From contig JAETRI010000008.1 in assembly GCA_021770245.1 (NCBI GenBank), positions 68,927 to 119,319 on the forward strand: 50,393 bases of DNA, written 5' to 3'. Positions 11,817 to 48,610 of this stretch are shown in pieces. The notes beneath the pieces are model-generated. The model saw only the letters and a program-made list of their open reading frames with translations. It was not told the DNA's origin and did no database searches. The position numbers and the translations under genes are program-made. Source of the DNA: Lachnospiraceae bacterium. GTDB taxonomy: Bacteria > Bacillota > Clostridia > Lachnospirales > Lachnospiraceae. How positions within the stretch are numbered: the stretch's first letter is position 1; each line of letters starts with the position of its first letter.

Positions 11817-11855
11817 AAAAAAGCCCTTCTCCCCGGTTTCCCGGAAAAAAGGACG
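11817..11855 (-). terminator. T-box terminator hairpin of the tyrS leader
   Basis: On the minus strand GTCCTTTTTTCCGG pairs (with G-U pairs) with CCGGGGAGAAGGGC around a GAAA loop and is followed by TTTTTTG. It overlaps the region that would form the antiterminator with the T-box sequence, as expected for this class. Confidence 0.8.
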
Positions 11856-12192
11856 AGCATAAACCCGTGTTACCACCTTCCTTCGCAGCCGGCTCACACC
11901 GTCTGCCTCATCAAGTACGGTCCCGCTTCCTGCGGCTGCAGTCCGAAACGCATTCGCAGATTTTTCCCTTTATCCGCCGGATGCGCTTTAAGGAATCGGA
12001 ACGATACTCCTGCAGGATAACGGCTGCGCCCGTTGCAGCCTACTCCCTTCCGGTTTCGGTGCAAAACTCCGGGATGTATTCCGGAACGCTTCCCCTGCGC
12101 CTCTCATCAACCGGCCGCTTTCTGTAGGATCCCCGTTTCCGTACTTCTTCCCTTCACAGTTGTTAGAAAATGATTCATTTATAACAAACTAT
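11817..12192 (-). ncRNA. T-box leader, tyrosine-specific
   Basis: The minus-strand leader contains the T-box sequence AAGGTGGTAACACGGG (11865-11880 region), followed by the terminator hairpin. The upstream part forms a long stem I. A UAC tyrosine codon lies in the GGAAUACAUCC segment (about 12074-12084), which I take as the specifier loop. Uncharged tRNA-Tyr would pair with UAC and with the UGG of the T-box bulge, and so allow readthrough into tyrS. Exact stem limits were judged by eye. Confidence 0.85.
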
Positions 12193-38168: not shown

Positions 38169-39094
38169 CCCAACATCTCTCCTTTATCCATCCGATATCC
38201 CAGCAGAAAATCCTTTACCGGCATCTGCTTCTTTCCTTCTATCTGTACCCGGGTCACCCGCAGGAGTCCGTCTCCCGTGTTCACGCAGACGGCATCCTTC
38301 TCCACCCTGCTCACGCTGCCCGGGCAGCCGTCCGCCTCTTCTCCCGTCACGCGGGCCTCCCAGATCTTCAGCGTCTTTCCCTTATAAGAAGTATACGCAC
38401 TCGGCCAGGGATTTAACCCCCGGATCTGCCTGTGGATCTGCTCCGCAGAGCGGGAAAAGTCGATCAGGCCCATTTTTTTATCGATCATGGAGGCATAGCA
38501 GCCGCCCTCCTCCGGCTGAGGCACAGCCTGTATGCTCCCCCTTTCGATCGCATCCAGGGCGGGAACGATCAGTGCGGCTCCCGCCTCCGCCAGCTTATCC
38601 TGGAGCGTGGAAGCGGTATCCTCGGGATTAATGGGCACCTCCCTTTTGAAAAGCATGTCTCCCGTATCGATCCCCTCGTCCATCTGCATAATCGTAACGC
38701 CGCTCACCGTCTCACCGTTTAAGATGGCCCACTGAATGGGGGCCGATCCCCGGTATTTCGGCAGAAGGGAGGCATGGATATTCACGCAGCCGTAAACCGG
38801 CAGCTGCAGGATCTCGCGGGATAAAATCTGTCCGAAAGCCGCCACCACGAAAACATCCGCCCCATAGGAAGCCAGCCGCTCCACGGCTTCCGGCCGCTTC
38901 AAGCGCTCCGGCTGAAACACCTCTATCCCCTTTTCAACGGCAAACGCCTTCACAGGCGGCATCTGCAGTGTCTTCCCCCTGCCCTTTGGCTTATCCGGCT
39001 GGGTAATCACTGCAGGGATTTCATGTCCTGCTTCCCATATGGCACGAAGCGCTCCCACCGCAAAATCCGGGGTACCCATAAATACTACCCTCAT
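38162..39094 (-). CDS. fmt: Methionyl-tRNA formyltransferase
   Basis: A 310-residue enzyme that formylates initiator Met-tRNA with 10-formyl-THF. The start MRVVFMGTPDFAVGAL, the SLLPKYRGSAPIQWAI motif with the catalytic Asn/His region (VNIHASLLP), and TGDML are all typical. The C-terminal OB-like domain is complete. The ATG is preceded by GGGAGGGCGA, which is the end of a tandem hairpin-SD repeat. Its usual partner def lies just upstream but is truncated. Confidence 0.96.
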   Translation of the reverse strand: MRVVFMGTPDFAVGALRAIWEAGHEIPAVITQPDKPKGRGKTLQMPPVKAFAVEKGIEVFQPERLKRPEAVERLASYGADVFVVAAFGQILSREILQLPVYGCVNIHASLLPKYRGSAPIQWAILNGETVSGVTIMQMDEGIDTGDMLFKREVPINPEDTASTLQDKLAEAGAALIVPALDAIERGSIQAVPQPEEGGCYASMIDKKMGLIDFSRSAEQIHRQIRGLNPWPSAYTSYKGKTLKIWEARVTGEEADGCPGSVSRVEKDAVCVNTGDGLLRVTRVQIEGKKQMPVKDFLLGYRMDKGEMLGC

Positions 39095-39099
39095 TCGCC

Positions 39100-39258
39100 C
39101 TCCCGTCTGCCCGCTTTCGCGGGCATTTAAATCAAGGAGATTGAAAGTGTCCTTCTTTCAATCTTGCTCCCGTCTGCCCGCTTTCGCGGGCATTTGAATC
39201 AAGGAGATTGAAAGTGTCCTTCTTTCAATCTTGCTCCCGTCTGCCCTTTCCGGGCAGG
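39100..39258 (-). repeat. 67-bp tandem hairpin-SD repeat (2.4 copies) between def and fmt
   Basis: Copies start at 39100, 39167 and 39234 (the last partial). The two full copies differ at one base or so. Each unit has the CTCCCGTCTGCCCG...CGGGCA stem, then ATTTAAATCAAGGAG or ATTTGAATCAAGGAG, and a second hairpin (GATTGAAAG pairing with CTTTCAATC). On the minus strand the last unit ends GACGGGAGG 5 nt before fmt. The first unit encodes the last residues of the truncated def frame. Confidence 0.85.
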
Positions 39259-39530
39259 CTCAGACAGCCTTCCCCTCCGGTCTGCTCCCCGCTGGTCTCC
39301 ATAATACGGGGATTGATCAATACGATCAGATCTTCTCCCGTCACGTCGATCACCACGATCCGTTTCAGCACCCCCACCTGGGGGGCCGCCAGTCCCACGC
39401 CGTTCGCATCGTACATGGTTTCAATCATATCGTCGATCAGCTCCCGCGTCCGGGGCGTCATTTCCTTTACTTCCTTACACGTTTTCTCCAGTATGGGATC
39501 TCCCATGAGCCTGATATTCCTGATCGCCAT
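39225..39530 (-). pseudogene. def: Peptide deformylase, truncated before the HExxH motif
   Basis: A 101-residue frame that is clearly the N-terminal part of peptide deformylase. It begins MAIRNIRLMGDPILEKTCK and has motif 1 (GVGLAAPQ) and motif 2 (EGCLSLP, with the metal Cys). It then runs into the tandem hairpin repeat, which encodes the last residues and the stop. Motif 3 (HExDH), with two metal ligands and the catalytic Glu, and about 55-65 residues are missing and are not found in any frame up to fmt. The product should be inactive. The ribosome binding site (GCAGGAGGATAGG) is intact. A second def elsewhere, or an assembly collapse at the repeat, should be considered. Confidence 0.8.
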
Positions 39531-39828: not shown

Positions 39829-40830
39829 TTAGATATTCCCGAAATCCTCTTCTATAATATACTGCATCATATCCTGGGGAAGCATGGTATATCCTTCCGC
39901 TTTCAGCCGGGGAAGGCTCTGCGCATATTTGGTCCTAAGGGAGGCCAGATAATAATTCTTATAATGATAGTCCCTGAGCCTTTCTGTCTGGCCGCCGCAA
40001 TACTTTAACGCCACCGTCTCCCTGGTCTGCCTGATCCTGTCCGCAATCTCCCCGATGCAGCCTTCCATCTGCGTCCTGACCGGCTGCGGGACCTGATCTT
40101 TGTATCTGTCATATTCCTCCTGTGCCTTCCGAAGCTGTTTCTCGTCCTCCGTCAGGTACAGCGCCTTGCACCAGCCGGCGATTTTCCAGTCCAGATTGTC
40201 CGTCCTGTCAGGATAACGGGCCAGATATGCCATCCTGAGCTGTCCTTCCGCTATATTCACGTTGGTGGAGGAATCATAAAATTCGATGATTAACCCCTCC
40301 CACTGACGGACCAGTTCCCCTCTCTCATACTCCCGGGCCAGCTCGTCCACCAGCGTGGCGGTAAGGGAATACACCCGGTCCGCCAGTTCTTCCAGCGCCG
40401 TCACCGCCGGCCGGTAATCTTCGGCCTGCGTCGGCTCTTCCTTTTGTATCACGCTCCTAAGCCACTGCTCGGCACGTCTGCGCACATCCCCGGTGCCGCT
40501 TTCCTCGCTTACGTTATGGGCAAAGGCCGTCCGCAGGTCCTGCACCAGAATCTGACACGCCTGGAGCCTGCCGAATTCGTCCTGGCATCTCCGGCCGAGA
40601 TTTCCTCCCAGCCTTCCGTCCAGCCTTTTCAGCCTGCCAATCAGGCCGGCATCCACCACAAACTTATACAGATTCGTAACTCCCTTAAAAAATCTCCCGT
40701 CGTCCCCGAAGGCCCGAAAACTTTCCGGTTCGTAATTGCATAGCAAAAACAGATGGGGGGCTATTCTTTCCCGCACCAGCGCATTTAATTCCTCCGCGCC
40801 GTCCCGGTAAAAAAGAAGGCTTCTGTTCAT
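39829..40830 (-). CDS. Helical protein with HEPN-like RxxxxH motif; partner of the SIR2-like/P-loop protein
   Basis: A 333-residue, almost wholly helical protein I cannot assign to a named family. Residues 93-107 (ILVQDLRTAFAHNVS) contain R-TAFA-H (Arg100, His105), the arrangement of the HEPN RNase active site (LRxxxxH at the end of a helix). Two long helical halves follow, with charged coiled-coil-like stretches (about 225-275). No signal peptide, membrane segment or zinc site is seen. Its ATG overlaps the stop of the 1254-residue gene (ATGA), so the two proteins are made together and probably interact. A toxic RNase effector is the most attractive reading, but the motif alone is short and could be chance. 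Confidence 0.6.
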   Translation of the reverse strand: MNRSLLFYRDGAEELNALVRERIAPHLFLLCNYEPESFRAFGDDGRFFKGVTNLYKFVVDAGLIGRLKRLDGRLGGNLGRRCQDEFGRLQACQILVQDLRTAFAHNVSEESGTGDVRRRAEQWLRSVIQKEEPTQAEDYRPAVTALEELADRVYSLTATLVDELAREYERGELVRQWEGLIIEFYDSSTNVNIAEGQLRMAYLARYPDRTDNLDWKIAGWCKALYLTEDEKQLRKAQEEYDRYKDQVPQPVRTQMEGCIGEIADRIRQTRETVALKYCGGQTERLRDYHYKNYYLASLRTKYAQSLPRLKAEGYTMLPQDMMQYIIEEDFGNI

Positions 40831-43800
40831 TGTCTGCCCTCCAATCTCTTACGGCCCTCCGGCGTATACAGGGAAAATCCCATATAGCCGATGCCCATTT
40901 CCAAACCGGTCAGATATTCGTTTTCCTCGGGCATTTTCCGGTTCCCCAGATTGTTCAGATAGAAACGGACCCCCTTCTTATTGCCCAGATACAGCGGCAG
41001 CCCGTCCACCTTAATGAATCCCTTGAAGCGTTCCCTGGCGTCGATCACCTTGCCCGAGTAAGCAGCCGGGCAGCCGTCGGAATCGCAGATCATATACGGG
41101 ACGCGCATCCGCGGCGTGGCGTAAAATGCCTCCTCGTTCAGGGAAACCAGCATGTCCGCAGCCTCCCTGTAATCTCCCGAAAGCTGCACCACGGACAGGG
41201 CATGGACCAGCACGACGATGGGGCGTCTGTTGGAGTTGGTACATTCCTCATAGAGACAGCAGATCCTTCTGATGTCCTCCCACTGCCCCTTATCCAGCCT
41301 GGTCATCCGGCGTTCCTGGCCGTTGTCGGACAGAGGCCTCCTGTTATAGCACATCCAGGCCACCCGGAGCAGCAGGTACAGGGCATGGGAATTCCTCTCC
41401 ACACACTCCGCATACTCCTTTTTGCTGAGGAAATCATAGATTTCTCTGCACTTCTCCAGCTGCCCTTCGGTCAGTTCGGACGCCTCGTCGTCCGGATCCC
41501 TTCCCGCCCGGTTCAGCCTGCACGACTCCAGTTCCTGCTGCGCCACAAAGGTGATGGCGGAGGCGTTGTTCTGTTCCAGCATCTTTTGAAACAGGCTGGA
41601 AAAGGAGGGGCTGCAGCTTCCCTCCAGGATACTGCGGATGCCGACCCGCGCAGCGCTGCCGTACTGCCGGATGCGCGCCAGATGCTGACCCAGCTCATCC
41701 ACGCCGGCCGGGCCCCGGTCCTGGATATCGCTGCCAAGCGCATCGTCCACATACATCATGATTTCGCTCAGCAGCGCGATCCGCTTCTCTTCCCCGTCCG
41801 CGCCCTGGTACTCCTTTTCAAACAGGTCAAAGAGGGCGTTATAGATATAGCCGTTGAGCGGGTCGCTGTTCAGCGCCTTCGTCAGCATCTGATACATGGG
41901 ACGGTAGGGCAGCGGATTATAGATCGAGCGGTCGATCCTCGCCTGCAGCCCCTTTGCCCGGCACAGACGGAAATACTCGTTCAGCAGCTTTTCCAGGCTC
42001 ATGTTGCAGCGGCACAGCTCCACGGTCAGGGAATTGATCTGGGAAGCCACCTGCCGCCTGCTGCCATAATCCACATCGGAACGCTCCAGCATATCGATAT
42101 TGGCATTGGCCAGATCCACCGCCTTCTTCAGCTGCTTGAGCCTCGTACAATAGGTTTCCTCGGTGAAAATATCCCCGTATACATCCCAGCATTCCAATCC
42201 GCCCGGTTCGTTTTCACCCGCAAAACAGCCGTGCACGATTCTGGACCAGTTATTGCCGAAATATTCCCGCAGGAACGTAATTTCAATGGACGCAAAGCTG
42301 GCGTCCGCATCCTCCATCCCGATTTCTTCCCGCATATAAGCCAGCTTGTCGATGATCCGGTCCATATTTTTCAGAAGCAGGTTGTGTTCCATATTTCCCT
42401 GATCCTGGAATTTCTCATAGTCGGAATTCGGGCCCAGGATACGGATAAGCCGCTGCAGCGTCCTCTTCAGGAACGGGTCCTGGGAACCGTACTGCCTGTA
42501 GCTGTAGATATAATAATCCAGCATCTGCAGAACCATACCGATGGTTTTGTCCGGCTCGATGGCGTTGTTTTTCAAATGGATCTCCGCTTCCTTCACGCTG
42601 CGGTAATAGAAACAGAATTCACCATCTTCGTTTTCCCGGTAGAAAATCCACGGTATGGAGGACGTGACGATCTTGAACAGTTCCCTCTTACTGTCCGAAT
42701 AGAAAAGTTCGGCCTGGCCGGCATTCCCCTCATACAGTAAATAGAGCGCCAAAGACACCGGCGTATCCAGTTTGAAACGGCCGAAAAGCGCGACGCAATC
42801 GTTTAACCGGCCCAGATTTTCCAGCGCCCGGTCCTCTTTTTTCTCCGCGTCCTCTTCCTCATCCAGGGTAAATCCGGCATCCTGCAGCGCCTTTTGTATG
42901 GGGCTGAGCGTCTTCTCCTCCGTCTCGTCTGCGGGCTCCCCCGTATAATCTTTCATCTGTTCCTGGACATATCTGAAAACGATCCGCTGCTCATCGCCCA
43001 GTCCCTGCTCCAGGGGCGGCTGCAGCGCCACGATCAGTTCATAGAAGTAGTCAAACAGGCTCGCGTCCGGCGTTTCTTTCAGTTTTTCCCACTTTCTTTT
43101 GATGTGGTCGGAATTCTGCGGGCAGTACCTCCTGATTTTATTCATCAGTTCGTATTCTTCCCGGCTGTTGATCCAGCGGTTGCTGTTTACGAAATAGCAG
43201 CCGTTGTAATAGGATACCGCGGCCGGCCTGCCGTCGGAGCGCTCCTCAAATCCTCTTTCCTTCTCCCAGCCAAACCGGCGCACCTCATCCGGGCCGGCCT
43301 TTTCCAGGGCCAGATTGCGGTACGCGCTGCACACCAGCACGAAGCGGCGTCCCCTGTTGTCCAGCTGCCTGGCGATGTTCTTCGCGTTCTTCTCAATGTT
43401 ATGATAGGCGGAGCCGTCCCAGATCACCAGGATACGCGTATCCGCCTCGCCCGCGGCCTCGACCGTCTGCATCATGCTGTCCAGTTCTTCCAGATCCTCG
43501 TTGATATTCAGTTCCTTTTTGGTGATGAAAATCACCGGGTTCATCTTCTTTTCGAAGATCTGGAAAGCGAGGAAGCCCAGCACGATACTTTTGCTGCTTC
43601 CCGGGTCTCCGTTCAGGATGATCGGCGTGGCATATCCGTAGCCGGCCATTTCCTTTCCGTCCAGGATATTGCTGACCAGTTCGGTAAGAACTGTCCCGTA
43701 TTCCCTTTTCAGATAAAATTCGGACTGGGGCAGATAGCCGTACCATTGCGGGCCGTAGACCGCAGTTCTCGTCAGAAAGTTGGCAAACCACCTCGCCTGC

Positions 43801-44591
43801 TGGATCCTCCCCAGCGGGCGGATCTCATAGACCTTCTCTTCGGTCAGAAGCTCCCCCGCATTCCGGTAACGCAGCAGCTGGCTCTGGGGCAGGAACGCAG
43901 GCTTCCTGCCCTTATAGAACAGCCGCATGGCTGCATCCGGGTCTTCCTTCGCCTCGGGGATATCCTCCGTGCCCCGGCGGCCCAGCATCTGCGCCAGGGT
44001 CTGCCGGAAATGGCGGAAATTCATCTTATCTGCGGATTTCAGCAGCTTGGCGGTCTCCTCATCCTCCGGATCCATGCCGAACAGGCTGATGCTGCCTCCC
44101 TGGCATTTCCCCCACTGAACCACGAGGGACGTCCTTTTGAGCTCGTTCTCTTCCCCCGGACGGTATCCCACCATGACCATCTGGCTGACCACGTCCAGCT
44201 TGGCCATGACCGCGGCCAGAATGGTTTTGCATTCGTCCTGCTGCCGCTCCCTTAAAAGCTCCGGATCCTCCTCCGCCTCTTCCCCTGCACCGACGCCGAA
44301 GCACCGGATCACAGGAAGCTGCGAACGGTTAAACAGCTTCAGGGGCAGTTCCCCCGCGCTGTTATATTCCTTCAGCCTTCTGCCGTCCTTCTCAAAATAT
44401 TTACAGAATCCTTCCTCCTGATTCGTTGTAATCACACAGCTCCAGGGCAGCTGGCAGACCTCCGCGCTCAGCTCCTCTGAAAGCGGGCCCGTCCCGACGA
44501 ACAGGATCATATTGTTGACGTTGAAACTTTGAATGAAATCCGCAACGACCGCATCTTCCTCTTGTATCGAAATTCCCATCTTAACCGCCAT
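40827..44591 (-). CDS. Large SIR2-like/P-loop NTPase protein with helical repeat C-terminus (candidate defence protein)
   Basis: A 1254-residue protein. The N-terminus (about residues 13-165) follows the SIR2-like fold: ILFVGTGPLSEE, WSCVITTNQ (51-58) and VVSQMVMVGYRPGEE. The catalytic His of the usual KLHG appears lost (RCFG, 96-99), so NAD cleavage is doubtful. A P-loop ATPase follows: Walker A GDPGSSKS (328-335), Walker B-like ILVIWDGS (387-394) and a FVLVCSAYR strand (417-425), as in STAND/AAA proteins. From about 480 to 1150 it is helical and probably repeat-like, and a small beta-rich end domain contains IKVDGLPLYLGN. This sensor-switch layout resembles SIR2-STAND (Avs5-like) antiviral proteins. 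It lies between an ADP-ribosylglycohydrolase-family gene (25 nt) and the HEPN-like gene (overlap). Confidence 0.65.
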   Translation of the reverse strand: MAVKMGISIQEEDAVVADFIQSFNVNNMILFVGTGPLSEELSAEVCQLPWSCVITTNQEEGFCKYFEKDGRRLKEYNSAGELPLKLFNRSQLPVIRCFGVGAGEEAEEDPELLRERQQDECKTILAAVMAKLDVVSQMVMVGYRPGEENELKRTSLVVQWGKCQGGSISLFGMDPEDEETAKLLKSADKMNFRHFRQTLAQMLGRRGTEDIPEAKEDPDAAMRLFYKGRKPAFLPQSQLLRYRNAGELLTEEKVYEIRPLGRIQQARWFANFLTRTAVYGPQWYGYLPQSEFYLKREYGTVLTELVSNILDGKEMAGYGYATPIILNGDPGSSKSIVLGFLAFQIFEKKMNPVIFITKKELNINEDLEELDSMMQTVEAAGEADTRILVIWDGSAYHNIEKNAKNIARQLDNRGRRFVLVCSAYRNLALEKAGPDEVRRFGWEKERGFEERSDGRPAAVSYYNGCYFVNSNRWINSREEYELMNKIRRYCPQNSDHIKRKWEKLKETPDASLFDYFYELIVALQPPLEQGLGDEQRIVFRYVQEQMKDYTGEPADETEEKTLSPIQKALQDAGFTLDEEEDAEKKEDRALENLGRLNDCVALFGRFKLDTPVSLALYLLYEGNAGQAELFYSDSKRELFKIVTSSIPWIFYRENEDGEFCFYYRSVKEAEIHLKNNAIEPDKTIGMVLQMLDYYIYSYRQYGSQDPFLKRTLQRLIRILGPNSDYEKFQDQGNMEHNLLLKNMDRIIDKLAYMREEIGMEDADASFASIEITFLREYFGNNWSRIVHGCFAGENEPGGLECWDVYGDIFTEETYCTRLKQLKKAVDLANANIDMLERSDVDYGSRRQVASQINSLTVELCRCNMSLEKLLNEYFRLCRAKGLQARIDRSIYNPLPYRPMYQMLTKALNSDPLNGYIYNALFDLFEKEYQGADGEEKRIALLSEIMMYVDDALGSDIQDRGPAGVDELGQHLARIRQYGSAARVGIRSILEGSCSPSFSSLFQKMLEQNNASAITFVAQQELESCRLNRAGRDPDDEASELTEGQLEKCREIYDFLSKKEYAECVERNSHALYLLLRVAWMCYNRRPLSDNGQERRMTRLDKGQWEDIRRICCLYEECTNSNRRPIVVLVHALSVVQLSGDYREAADMLVSLNEEAFYATPRMRVPYMICDSDGCPAAYSGKVIDARERFKGFIKVDGLPLYLGNKKGVRFYLNNLGNRKMPEENEYLTGLEMGIGYMGFSLYTPEGRKRLEGRQ

Positions 44592-44616
44592 TCTGCCGCC
44601 GTATGGCGGCTCTCAA

Positions 44617-46176
44617 TCAGGTCTCCCGCATCAGAACCACCTTGGCCGAGCCCGTAGAGTGCCTCCCTTCCAGAGATACTTCCACGATAAATTCCAGTTT
44701 CCCTCCCTCATAAGCTTCCGGCCTAAAGGCGATCTCCGCCTCCGCCCTGGCCCCGTACAGATTATTCAGCGGAAGCTGGAAGGCCCGTCCGTTTACCGCC
44801 TCCACTCCCTCCGGCATGTAGACCCGGATCCTGGCCCACTGCTGCTGGCACATGGTATGGGAGTTGACGACGCTCACTTTCACCTTCCGCAGCTCCCCGG
44901 TTTTGAAAAACACGGAATCCCCGTAATCCACCGTCAACCGGAAGGCCGGGAAATCATAGCGGACCACATAGGCGGACAGGCCGCACAAATCGCGCACGGG
45001 AAGCGCCTCATCCTTCCCGCCGCCGTTGATCCCGGGCAGATAGTCTGCGGCTTTCCTGCAGTAAAGGTCATCTCCCTCCCTGCACTCTATGCTCATCCCG
45101 CCCTCCGCGAATATGTCGCACCGCTCCGGCCCCAGGAAACCGGGCACTGCCCGCATGACCCGGTCCGTCAGCTGCGTCACCGTGGAGGGTACCCAGATCC
45201 CTCCGCCGGTTCTGTCAATACATAGGGTGGAAATTTTATCGTCCAGGGGAGCCGTCCACTTCTCCGGAAGGCCGCCGGCTCCGGACAGGATCCCCAGGAC
45301 GGCCCCCAGGGTAGCGCAGGTACAGTCCGTATCCTCCCCGCAGGCTACGGCCATACAAAGGCTCTTCCCGAAATCCTCTTCCCCGTACATCCATCCGGCG
45401 ATGGTAAACGCCACATTTTCCGGCGCGTCGAATCCGGGAGCCCCCAGCTCCATTCCCTCGTTTCCCTCCACCGGGATCCGGGAAAGGGTACAGCTCTGGA
45501 TACCGAAGGTGCCGGGAGCCGTATTGTGGATCCGCCTGCGCGCTTCGGCGAATTCCACCCCGGTATCATAGCATTCCATGGCGCAGCGGATGGCCTCCGC
45601 CGTCCGGCACTCCTCCGGGATGTAGGAAAGGGCGATATCGATCAGCTTCCTCTTGTCCGGCTCCACAAAAGCCGCGCTTTCCAGGGCCGCGAAAAAGATC
45701 TCCCCGTATACCCCTTCCCCCTCATGGTCCACAATGGCATCCTCGTAGGCGTAGCGGGCGGCCAGCTCCGGATTTCCCGGCGCGAGGCATGCCCAGATCT
45801 CCGAACGGATGAAGCAGCCGCAGCTGTCCTTGTAGGTATTGCCCACCACACCGGAAAGGGGAGGCTGCAGGCCGGCGCGCAGATTCGCCTTTCCCGTCCC
45901 GTACTCCACCCAGTTCGGAATACAATAGGAAAGCCAGTATTCCCCCAGAATAGAGGCGTTCACATTCCTGCCGTAGCGTTCCACGGCCGCCAGCCAGATG
46001 ATCTGCAGATCCAGATCGTCATTGGGCGGGGGCCCCATGGACAGATCCTGGGTATAAAAGGAGACGTCGTTCATCTGCCGTATCCCCTCAAAAGGCGCGC
46101 CCAGTACCCCGCCGATGTTTTTCCCGGTCCAGCATCCCATCACTTTGTCTTTATATGTGGCAAAATCCAGCTTCAT
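44617..46176 (-). CDS. ADP-ribosylglycohydrolase-family protein with C-terminal beta domain
   Basis: A 519-residue protein. Residues 1-335 match the ADP-ribosylglycohydrolase (DraG/ARH) fold: KVMGCWTGKNIGGVLGAPFEG at the start, the metal site PNDDLDLQ (51-58), and the second metal site ACGEDTDCTCATLGAVLG (279-294). Residues 340-519 look like a beta-sandwich. The family cleaves ADP-ribose from proteins or related N- or O-glycosidic bonds. Many Clostridial members of this length lie in sugar or nucleoside loci, so the true substrate is open. I start it at 46176 because GGGGGTTAAT precedes that ATG; an ATG four codons upstream is less likely. It heads the three-gene block after priA. Confidence 0.75.
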   Translation of the reverse strand: MKLDFATYKDKVMGCWTGKNIGGVLGAPFEGIRQMNDVSFYTQDLSMGPPPNDDLDLQIIWLAAVERYGRNVNASILGEYWLSYCIPNWVEYGTGKANLRAGLQPPLSGVVGNTYKDSCGCFIRSEIWACLAPGNPELAARYAYEDAIVDHEGEGVYGEIFFAALESAAFVEPDKRKLIDIALSYIPEECRTAEAIRCAMECYDTGVEFAEARRRIHNTAPGTFGIQSCTLSRIPVEGNEGMELGAPGFDAPENVAFTIAGWMYGEEDFGKSLCMAVACGEDTDCTCATLGAVLGILSGAGGLPEKWTAPLDDKISTLCIDRTGGGIWVPSTVTQLTDRVMRAVPGFLGPERCDIFAEGGMSIECREGDDLYCRKAADYLPGINGGGKDEALPVRDLCGLSAYVVRYDFPAFRLTVDYGDSVFFKTGELRKVKVSVVNSHTMCQQQWARIRVYMPEGVEAVNGRAFQLPLNNLYGARAEAEIAFRPEAYEGGKLEFIVEVSLEGRHSTGSAKVVLMRET

Positions 46177-46194
46177 ATTAACCCCCATTCCGGA

Positions 46195-46379
46195 GCGTTT
46201 ACGCGACGGGTCATGCCATCAAAGCTATTTGCGACGCTCCGGCGCAAATAGCCAGGCGAATCTGGTTCGCCTGTGAAACAATAAGCCATCAGGCTTATTT
46301 TTCGCACTAGTCCTTTCATGCCGCTCCCTTTGCGGCACCGCGGCGTGAAATCGCGCATGGGATTTCTCCTCTGCAATTC
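46195..46379 (-). repeat. Mosaic hairpin tract (modules X and Y) between priA and the ADP-ribosylglycohydrolase gene
   Basis: On the minus strand module X (46318-46379) is followed by module Y (46273-46306). Two more hairpins come next: AGGCGAA...TTCGCCT, and CTATTTGCG...CGCAAATAG at 46227-46252. X and Y are the modules found in reverse order in the mraZ leader (27475-27604), and part of X precedes cdd (6761-6789). The gap contains no promoter I can support. Confidence 0.6.
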
Positions 46380-46381
46380 GG

Positions 46382-48610
46382 TCAATAGGGCGACATGGGA
46401 TCAAAATCGAACGCAACCCGTCCGTCTGCCTCCCCCTGCCCTTTCAGATAACGCTCCATCCGGTCCTTCAGCCCGGTTAAAAGCCCGTAATCCGGGCTTT
46501 TGATATAAAGCGCATACCGGAAGACATCGTTGATCTTTTCGATGGAGGCGGGCGCCGGGCCGATCACGTACGATCCCTCCGGAACCTCCCCCGCCAAGTC
46601 CCTCATGCTCCGCGCCGTCTGCTCCGCCCCCTCCCGGGTGGGCGCACCCACCTGCACCACCAGAATATGCGCCACGGGCGGATAGGCCAGAAGGCTCCGG
46701 TAAAGGATCTCCTCTTCGTAAAAGCCCTCGTAATCCTGGGCGGCCGCATGGACGATACTGTAATGCTCCGGCTGATAGGTCTGGATGACCACCTCTCCGG
46801 GCCTGTTTCCCCGGCCCGCCCGGCCCGCCGCCTGGGTGAGCAGCTGGAAGGTCCGCTCCCCGGCCCGGTGGTCGCATACCCCCAGGGACATGTCCGCCGC
46901 CAGGATCCCCATCAGGGTCACGTTGGGAAAGTCGTGCCCCTTCACGATCATCTGCGTCCCCACCAGCACGTCCGCCTCCCCCGCCGCGAAGGCGGAAAGG
47001 ATCTTTTCATAGCTTTCCTTCTTCCGGGTGGTATCCGCATCCATGCGAAGCACCTTTCTATCGGGATATTTTTCCAAAAGCTGCTCTTCGATCTGCTCCG
47101 TTCCCGCACGGAAGCCGCCTACGTATTTGGAGCCGCATTCCGGACACAGCCGTACCGCCTTCTGTACATAGCCGCAGTAATGGCACACCAGCGTGCCGTC
47201 CCTGTGCTCCGAAAGGGACACGTCGCAATGGGGGCATTTCATCACATGCCCGCACATCCGGCAGGACACAAATCCCGCGTAGCCCCTCCTGTTCAGGAAA
47301 AGCATGCTCTGCTCCCCTCTGGCAAAACGATCCTCTAGAAGCCGCGTCAGCCTGCGGGAAAAGATGGAACGGTTCCCGCTCTTTAATTCCTCCCGCAGAT
47401 CCTCCACGTAGACCGTGGGCAGCGTTCCCCCGGTCAGCCGTTCCTCCAGGGTGAAAAGCCGGTAGATTCCCTGCTTTGCCCGATAATAGCTGTCCAGGGA
47501 CGGAGTGGCGGATCCCAGGAAAACCGATGCGTGATGCAGTCTGGCCAGTTCCTCCGCGGTTTCCCGGGCGTGATACTTGGGCATGGTCTCGCTTTTATAG
47601 CTTCCCTCGTGCTCCTCGTCGATGATGATCAGCCCCACCTGCGGAAACGGGGTAAAAAGGGCGGAGCGGGGCCCGATGATCACATCGATTTCCTTTTTCC
47701 GGGCCCGCTCGCACTGGTCATATTTTTCCCCGGCGGACAGGGTGGAATTCATCACCGAAACCCGGTCTCCGAACCTCTTGTAAAAACGCAGGACGGTCTG
47801 GTAGGTCAGGGCGATTTCCGGAATCAGCATGATGGCCTGCTGACCCCTGGCCACCACCCCCTCTATCAGTGCCATATAGACCTCGGTCTTGCCGCTTCCC
47901 GTAATTCCCCTCAGCAGATAGGTCCGCCGCCGCCCTCCGTCATAGTCGGAAAGCACCTCGTCCACAATCCGCCGTTGATTCACGCTCAGCTGATGCCCTG
48001 CTTCCCTGGCTGCATCCAGCTTCACCGGGTTGCGGTAATAGGGAACCGTATTGACGGAAATCAGTCCGGCATCCCGCAGGCTTTTAAAGGTGGCAGGGGA
48101 AATGTTCAGCTTCTTCGCCACCAGCCCCATGGGCAGCCGTTCTTCCGCAATCAGCTCTCGCAGCACCCTGGCCTTGGCCGTCTGATGCTTCCTTTCACAG
48201 GCCAGCATTTCGCCTCTGGCCTCCTCGCGGCCCACCCGCAGGCAGATTTCCTTCTTTTCCTGCGCCTTCATCTTCTGGCGGACCGGCAGGACGGTTTTCA
48301 GGGCATTGATCATGGTGGATCCATAGTGCTCCTTCATCCAGAAAGCCAGCCGGATCAGCCTGCCTTCCACCTGGATCCCGTCCTCCTGGATGCCTGCGAT
48401 CTCCTTCAGCCGGCTTTCGTCGAATTCCGCCTCGTCCGTCACCTCGATGACATACCCTGTACGCAGCCCGTTCCCCCTGCCGAAGGGGATGCGCACGCGC
48501 ATCCCCGGCTCCAGCATGCCGGACAGCTTCTCCGGGATACGGTAGGCAAAGGGACGGTCCACCTTTTCATGGGAGATATCCACGATCACATTTGCAAACC
48601 TGCCCTGCAT
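46382..48610 (-). CDS. priA: Primosomal replication restart helicase PriA
   Basis: A 742-residue superfamily 2 helicase that reloads the replisome at stalled forks. Residues 1-105 are the 3'-DNA-binding domain (FANVIVDISHEKVDRPFAYRIPEKL). Walker A is GITGSGKTEVYM and the DEAH-type box is DEEH. The zinc-binding Cys cluster (CRMCGHVMKCPHC to CHYCGY to CPECG) is complete, and the C-terminal helicase motifs include TQAAGRAGRG. The ATG has GGAGGAAGGC before it and lies 44 nt inside murE. In related genomes priA is followed by def and fmt; here a three-gene block intervenes. Confidence 0.96.
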   Translation of the reverse strand: MQGRFANVIVDISHEKVDRPFAYRIPEKLSGMLEPGMRVRIPFGRGNGLRTGYVIEVTDEAEFDESRLKEIAGIQEDGIQVEGRLIRLAFWMKEHYGSTMINALKTVLPVRQKMKAQEKKEICLRVGREEARGEMLACERKHQTAKARVLRELIAEERLPMGLVAKKLNISPATFKSLRDAGLISVNTVPYYRNPVKLDAAREAGHQLSVNQRRIVDEVLSDYDGGRRRTYLLRGITGSGKTEVYMALIEGVVARGQQAIMLIPEIALTYQTVLRFYKRFGDRVSVMNSTLSAGEKYDQCERARKKEIDVIIGPRSALFTPFPQVGLIIIDEEHEGSYKSETMPKYHARETAEELARLHHASVFLGSATPSLDSYYRAKQGIYRLFTLEERLTGGTLPTVYVEDLREELKSGNRSIFSRRLTRLLEDRFARGEQSMLFLNRRGYAGFVSCRMCGHVMKCPHCDVSLSEHRDGTLVCHYCGYVQKAVRLCPECGSKYVGGFRAGTEQIEEQLLEKYPDRKVLRMDADTTRKKESYEKILSAFAAGEADVLVGTQMIVKGHDFPNVTLMGILAADMSLGVCDHRAGERTFQLLTQAAGRAGRGNRPGEVVIQTYQPEHYSIVHAAAQDYEGFYEEEILYRSLLAYPPVAHILVVQVGAPTREGAEQTARSMRDLAGEVPEGSYVIGPAPASIEKINDVFRYALYIKSPDYGLLTGLKDRMERYLKGQGEADGRVAFDFDPMSPY

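Follow-up and report, generated by a model that had tools for sequence, protein, structure and literature searches.

The locus and its gene layout

What do the three minus-strand genes lying between priA and def in a Lachnospiraceae bacterium do, and which of them belong together? The stretch of DNA analysed (the window) comprised 50,393 nucleotides, positions 68,927 to 119,319 of contig JAETRI010000008.1 in assembly GCA_021770245.1, and was described in an initial annotation as containing a tightly packed block of ADP-ribosylglycohydrolase, SIR2-like/P-loop and HEPN-like genes. Reading of the open frames confirmed this layout in full: downstream of priA (46382-48610) lies an ADP-ribosylglycohydrolase-family gene (44617..46176; PF03747, E 2.3e-39), followed after a 25-nt gap by the gene for a 1254-residue protein (P0001; 40827..44591), which in turn overlaps by 4 nt (ATGA) the gene for a 333-residue protein (P0002; 39829..40830), and thereafter by def and then fmt. 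The glycohydrolase frame may start at 46188 or at the ATG at 46176, the copy in another genome of the same genus (G011) starting at the equivalent of the latter. The motifs previously read in the translations were likewise all located: VITTN (residues 53-57), the Walker A sequence GDPGSSKS (residues 328-335; 43587..43610) and the Walker B-like ILVIWDGS (residues 387-394, with ILVIWD at 387-392; 43410..43433) in P0001, and R100-TAFA-H105 in P0002, all on the minus strand.

Three further features of the window were recorded. The spacer between priA and the glycohydrolase gene (46189-46381) looks hairpin-rich by eye, and a repeat finder detected no repeats of at least 14 nt within it. The def gene (39225-39530) encodes just 101 residues as against 170 in G011, its 3' part, presumably the site of the last metal-binding motif, being lost where two 67-nt tandem repeat units (39091-39224) start; this shortening reflects a genuine break in the gene or an error of assembly. 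A T-box leader on the minus strand (11846-12166) was the sole Rfam match in the window at the gathering threshold.

Conservation of the block within the genus

The same block was found at the same place in G011, with identities to the window of 89% for the large protein, 78% for the partner and 93% for the glycohydrolase. In the same comparison the large gene had a dN/dS of 0.10, with 0.093 over the SIR2-like part; the partner gene had 0.20 and the glycohydrolase gene 0.065, and five neighbouring genes ranged from 0.03 to 0.13. All genes of the block are under purifying selection, the partner gene being the fastest-changing. The block occupied the priA-def site in two of 13 genomes of the genus and was absent from 11, and in all 10 readable block-less genomes priA was followed by def with no block between, a count that leaves out G004, where priA lies at a contig end. 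Insertion in the branch of the window and G011 is the simplest reading of this pattern, loss in the other branches being the alternative. Because the block has been kept in G011 under low dN/dS, and because full-length relatives of P0001 occur in three distant lineages (vide infra), it is considered to be more than a chance assemblage.

Whether the glycohydrolase forms part of a system with the other two genes was left undecided by the initial annotation, which had it either removing an ADP-ribose mark or travelling as a passenger. A three-gene system is suggested by the common strand, the 25-nt gap and a gene order common to the two genus genomes, but in G001, G002 and G012 orthologues 82-83% identical were found at other sites that lack the pair, behind frames read by eye as a solute-binding protein, two permeases and a sensor kinase, and tblastn detected no glycohydrolase gene in the 16-19.5 kb around the large gene or pair in the distant genomes G040, G740 and G978. 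Since such close orthologues sit in other clusters without the pair, the glycohydrolase is judged, from these comparisons, to be a probable passenger; a three-gene system acting on an ADP-ribose mark was rejected as very improbable.

Relatives of the large protein and its NTPase region

Full-length relatives of P0001 were found in G011 and, outside the genus, in three further lineages within the phylum, represented by G040, G740 and G978. The distant relatives were 19-23% identical to P0001 over the full-length alignment, single-pair BLAST with the G740 protein giving E 3e-37, and sizes across the family ranged from 1115 to 1254 residues. Following removal of false matches (raw counts: five in the taxonomic family, three in the order, four in the phylum), searches with P0001 placed a member in three of 195 genomes of relatives, three of 299 of the taxonomic family and two of 392 of the order; wider searches gave two of 249 for the phylum and two of 186 for the class, and those around G740 one of three and one of 10. 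These samples overlap, and every one contains the window's genome or G740 itself. A pattern scan of genome contigs recovered a member, the genus relative, in only one of 14 stretches.

Some initial candidates were discarded as family members. Matches in G046, G712 and G715 were restricted to the P-loop region, in frames read as FlhF-, DnaA- and PriA-like, G046 still matching the family profile at E 2.9e-5 over the P-loop part; those in G125 and G198 were short and lay in frames that in our own reading are radical-SAM-like and sensor-kinase-like, respectively.

Alignment of the five members indicated that the Walker A Lys and the Ser/Thr next to it, together with the WD of the Walker B-like strand, were conserved in every one. 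The Pfam nSTAND_NTPase5 model (PF25199; cut-off 34 bits) recognised the G978 relative at 37.0 bits, the scores of G040 (30.8), G740 (23.6) and the window (14.3; E 0.036) falling below the cut-off. Pfam gave nothing above cut-off for P0001 or P0002, and PADLOC at E up to 1 gave no match for the window proteins and just weak ones for the relatives. The long C-terminal region (residues 690-1254; 40830..42524), for which a sensing function is proposed, was collinear among the relatives. P0001 is predicted to be a divergent SIR2-like/STAND NTPase.

The SIR2-like head

The SIR2-like domain of P0001 (about residues 1-205; 43977..44591) presents GTGPL, TTNQE and RCFG where GAGxS, TTNxD and HG or NG would be expected, and all three motifs were absent from the alignment in all five members. 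The first site read GTGPL in the window, GTGAS in G011, GQQYL in G040, GDNFN in G740 and GQAYL in G978; the second read TTNQE in both the window and G011, TTSVD in G040, TTLRQ in G740 and TSAID in G978, such that the Asn of TTN (N57 in P0001) occurs only in the window and G011, and the Asp only in G040 and G978. The third read FG in the window, G011 and G978, YG in G040 and SG in G740, in a register that is uncertain, hhalign shifting it by one residue. Just upstream of this site lie ILHG in G978 and ILH in G040, and in both the ILH could represent a displaced His; P0001 contains neither His nor Asn in residues 89-110.

Relationship to SIR2 proteins was indicated by several comparisons of modest score. 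The N-terminal profile, searched against 177,635 PDB sequences, returned the SIR2 NADase KomC as the best three of five matches (E 0.007-0.009), and hhalign of the head with nine SIR2-region sequences of relatives gave E 2.1e-4 and a probability of 46% (5.1e-4 and 31% under another column rule). The nine, drawn from 11 SIR2_2 loci, amount to sequences chosen for intact motifs, because L059 and L067, with no frame containing both G[AS]GxS and TTN, were dropped as motif-poor. The stand-alone SIR2-STAND protein of G003 was matched at E 1.3e-5 and that of the window's own genome (G000) weakly, at E 0.014, while the PADLOC SIR2 model matched the G040 relative only (E 0.003). Pfam at E up to 1 found no SIR2 family in any of the five members, a SIR2_2 search of the window's genome matched another gene only and not P0001, and a structure model of P0001 residues 1-690 (mean pLDDT 35) was too poor for use. 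Because SIR2_2 misses P0001 and the family link of the head relies on modest scores, confidence in the reading favoured below is slightly lowered.

As judged by alignment, the SIR2 motifs are worn in every member while the NTPase motifs and the HEPN signature (vide infra) persist. It is nevertheless conceivable that the head still cleaves NAD+ or handles ADP-ribose by means of shifted residues, the module then being an Avs5-type NADase with the partner as an accessory. Retention of N57 in the window and G011 and of ILH in G040 and G978, the head dN/dS of 0.093, and the tolerance by Avs5 of NG, used about as often as HG according to PMC12931631, would all accord with such activity, but GAGxS is lost in all five members, His and Asn are absent from P0001 residues 89-110, the TTN Asn is missing in G040, G740 and G978, and in Avs5 itself N110A, D112A or replacement of the NG Asn by Ala or Gln abolished defence (same source). 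Persisting NADase activity is consequently regarded as improbable.

The HEPN-motif partner

A partner gene was found directly behind the large gene in four of the five genomes, at spacings of -4 nt in the window and G011, 0 in G740 and +1 nt in G978, encoding proteins of 333 residues in the window, 300 in G740 and 246 in G978. With a profile built from both genus partners, the G978 partner came first among 88 ORFs (E 1.3e-6), and once that sequence had been added, the three-sequence profile placed the G740 partner first among 45 (E 1.5e-5). The genus-partner profile alone had put the G740 partner fourth of 45 (E 0.57), and comparison of the genus partners with it was negative by hhalign (probability 0.6%) and gave E 0.007 by BLAST. 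On this profile evidence the G740 and G978 partners are homologues of P0002 when the profiles are chained. Searches with the partner as query found it only in the window and G011 (two of 195 relatives) and in the window alone (one of 299 genomes of the taxonomic family). In the fifth genome, G040, the contig stops 414 nt past the large gene and the next ORF has 96 residues; this was not counted as a partner, 101 and 71 of 2000 shuffles being equally good and the profile match standing at E 1.4, and in our own reading a possible insertion sequence lies beyond the frame.

All four partners carry the signature R-[TS]-x-F-[AC]-H-N (R100-TAFA-H105-N106 in P0002; 40513..40533), in which R100, F103, H105 and N106 are invariant. 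These constitute four of 18 invariant columns and fall inside seven residues (binomial 2.6e-4, for a test picked post hoc), and R....HN occurred in only one of 52 window ORFs of at least 200 residues, that one being P0002. HEPN proteins are characterised, according to PMC3710099, by Rx4-6H with a polar residue, usually N, D or H, after the R, and in many families by a further acidic residue that mostly lies in Ex3[KR]. Both Rx4-6H and a polar residue after the R, here T or S, were present in all four partners, and Asp60 upstream of the motif was invariant in all four, though not in the exact Ex3[KR] context. Pfam at E up to 1 detected no HEPN family in any member, the search of PDB sequences returned a single unrelated match (E 0.8), and the partner model was all-helical but, at a mean pLDDT of 47, too poor for use. 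Conservation of a putative STAND protein with a HEPN-motif partner is well supported by these comparisons.

An overlapping gene pair of patchy distribution that bears a HEPN motif would also suit a toxin-antitoxin-like module. In that case the HEPN protein would inhibit growth as an RNase, and the STAND protein would serve chiefly to neutralise it and release it upon stress, without sensing phage specifically; the HEPN/MNT pair is an abundant one of this kind (PMC7641770). By way of contrast, the regulator here has 1115-1254 residues, its NTPase motifs are intact and its C-terminal region is long. To our knowledge small antitoxins are unlike so large an NTPase regulator, and this explanation is considered unlikely.

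Genomic setting of the distant relatives

The initial annotation had left it to be established whether the genes co-occur in other genomes and lie in defence islands. Genes of the P0001 and P0002 types were indeed paired elsewhere, in G740 and G978. As regards setting the outcome was divided: in G740 the downstream side holds cas5, cas7, cas8b and cas6 genes matching I-B models and the upstream side a C-5 cytosine methylase, and in G040 a MobA/MobL relaxase, a VapE-like protein, a CHC2 zinc finger, a phage integrase and an HTH regulator lie nearby, whereas in G978 the neighbours were read by eye as housekeeping genes, including cell-wall and transporter genes, and neither it nor the window lineage has a defence-island or mobile setting. 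Downstream of the G740 pair (L049:5666-6841) is a 391-residue protein with a possible metallopeptidase HEFAH and no Pfam or PADLOC match.

A plasmid search with P0001, the large proteins of G040 and G740 and the G740 partner yielded no match. In a phage search P0001 and the G740 protein likewise found nothing, and the G040 protein matched once, over the P-loop region. Of six scans of viral contigs, five gave rise to candidate matches, none of which was confirmed, and the sixth gave no candidate.

That two of the four lineages carry the genes amid others read as housekeeping could be taken to indicate a regulatory or housekeeping pair serving the host rather than defence. Such a role is decidedly improbable given the very patchy presence, with occupation of the priA-def site in only two of 13 genus genomes, and given the mobile-element neighbours in G040 and the CRISPR/methylase neighbourhood in G740.

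Proposed mechanism

STAND immune proteins often carry an effector within the same chain. The reading favoured here, held with moderate confidence, is that of a mobile, defence-like two-gene module in which a STAND switch has undergone decay of its own NADase and the effector is a co-translated HEPN RNase. The earlier interpretation of the block thus survives in its worn SIR2-like N-terminus, STAND-type NTPase, HEPN-motif partner and conserved pairing, all as predicted from sequence, and in a mobile or defence-like neighbourhood for two of the three distant relatives, and fails as regards membership of the glycohydrolase. A defence system with its RNase on a second chain is the best inference for the pair, with both folds, the RNase activity and the defence activity putative.

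In the favoured two-gene module, the large protein would derive from a SIR2-STAND (Avs5-type) ancestor, its head having lost most of the residues for NAD+ cleavage and being retained by selection, probably to serve as a scaffold or to bind a ligand. The C-terminal region of the large protein may detect an invader or evidence of damage as the trigger, whereupon nucleotide binding would drive assembly of the STAND protein; the small HEPN protein, as proposed effector, would be held in a complex with the large one and released or paired upon activation, thereafter cutting RNA such that growth stops, with an anti-phage outcome.

A further possibility, distinctly unlikely, is that the worn head now senses NAD+ or ADP-ribose and thereby controls the HEPN RNase, the pair being a second line that fires once the NAD+ pool has been drained by another system; a separate SIR2-STAND protein with intact catalytic motifs is encoded in this genome. 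Were this true, the effector would have moved from a same-chain NADase to a second-chain RNase, with the old enzyme domain as receptor. More generally, the family suggests that a STAND chain can lose an enzyme and gain a separate RNase, the dead domain still being under selection, and so small a two-gene cassette offers a way to test effector exchange among bacterial NLR-like proteins.

Comparison with known systems

Among the matches listed in a mostly open-access literature on SIR2, STAND, HEPN and Avs5, the available text of the sources does not describe the pair, which represents a candidate defence family unnamed by the Pfam and PADLOC libraries used. Avs5 (AVAST type 5) has in common with it an N-terminal SIR2-like domain, a STAND NTPase and a further C-terminal region, but keeps GAGxS, TTNxD and HG or NG and acts via NAD+ hydrolysis (PMC12931631), whereas the motifs of P0001 are worn and a HEPN-motif gene follows, a contrast drawn from the published description of Avs5. 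KomC of Kongming, to which the N-terminal profile had its strongest match among PDB sequences, is by PDB naming a SIR2-domain NADase of 264 residues. The defence HEPN RNases PrrC, RloC, the Abi families and Tha share the Rx4-6H signature (PMC3710099), but the partners here are matched by no Pfam HEPN family and the partner gene is of another type. The two-gene nSTAND2 conflict system, predicted to counter invaders, likewise combines STAND and HEPN, and in it a second STAND protein, itself inactive, carries a fused GT4 or HEPN effector (PMC8195603); here, by contrast, the HEPN motif is on a small protein in which no STAND was recognised, and its STAND partner bears a SIR2-like head.

The window's own genome also contains a second, stand-alone SIR2-STAND gene with intact catalytic motifs (L068:4247-6796, contig C171). 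The stand-alone proteins of G000, G003 and G011 show a SIR2_2 match and a sub-cut-off nSTAND_NTPase5 match (on L063) and, unlike P0001, keep GSGFS (GAGFS in G003), TTNYD and NG; the partner profile found nothing near those of G000 and G003. There is a direct contrast between a motif-intact SIR2-STAND protein, for which no partner was found, and a worn one accompanied by a HEPN-motif partner, the latter having presumably arisen from a form like the motif-intact stand-alone one.
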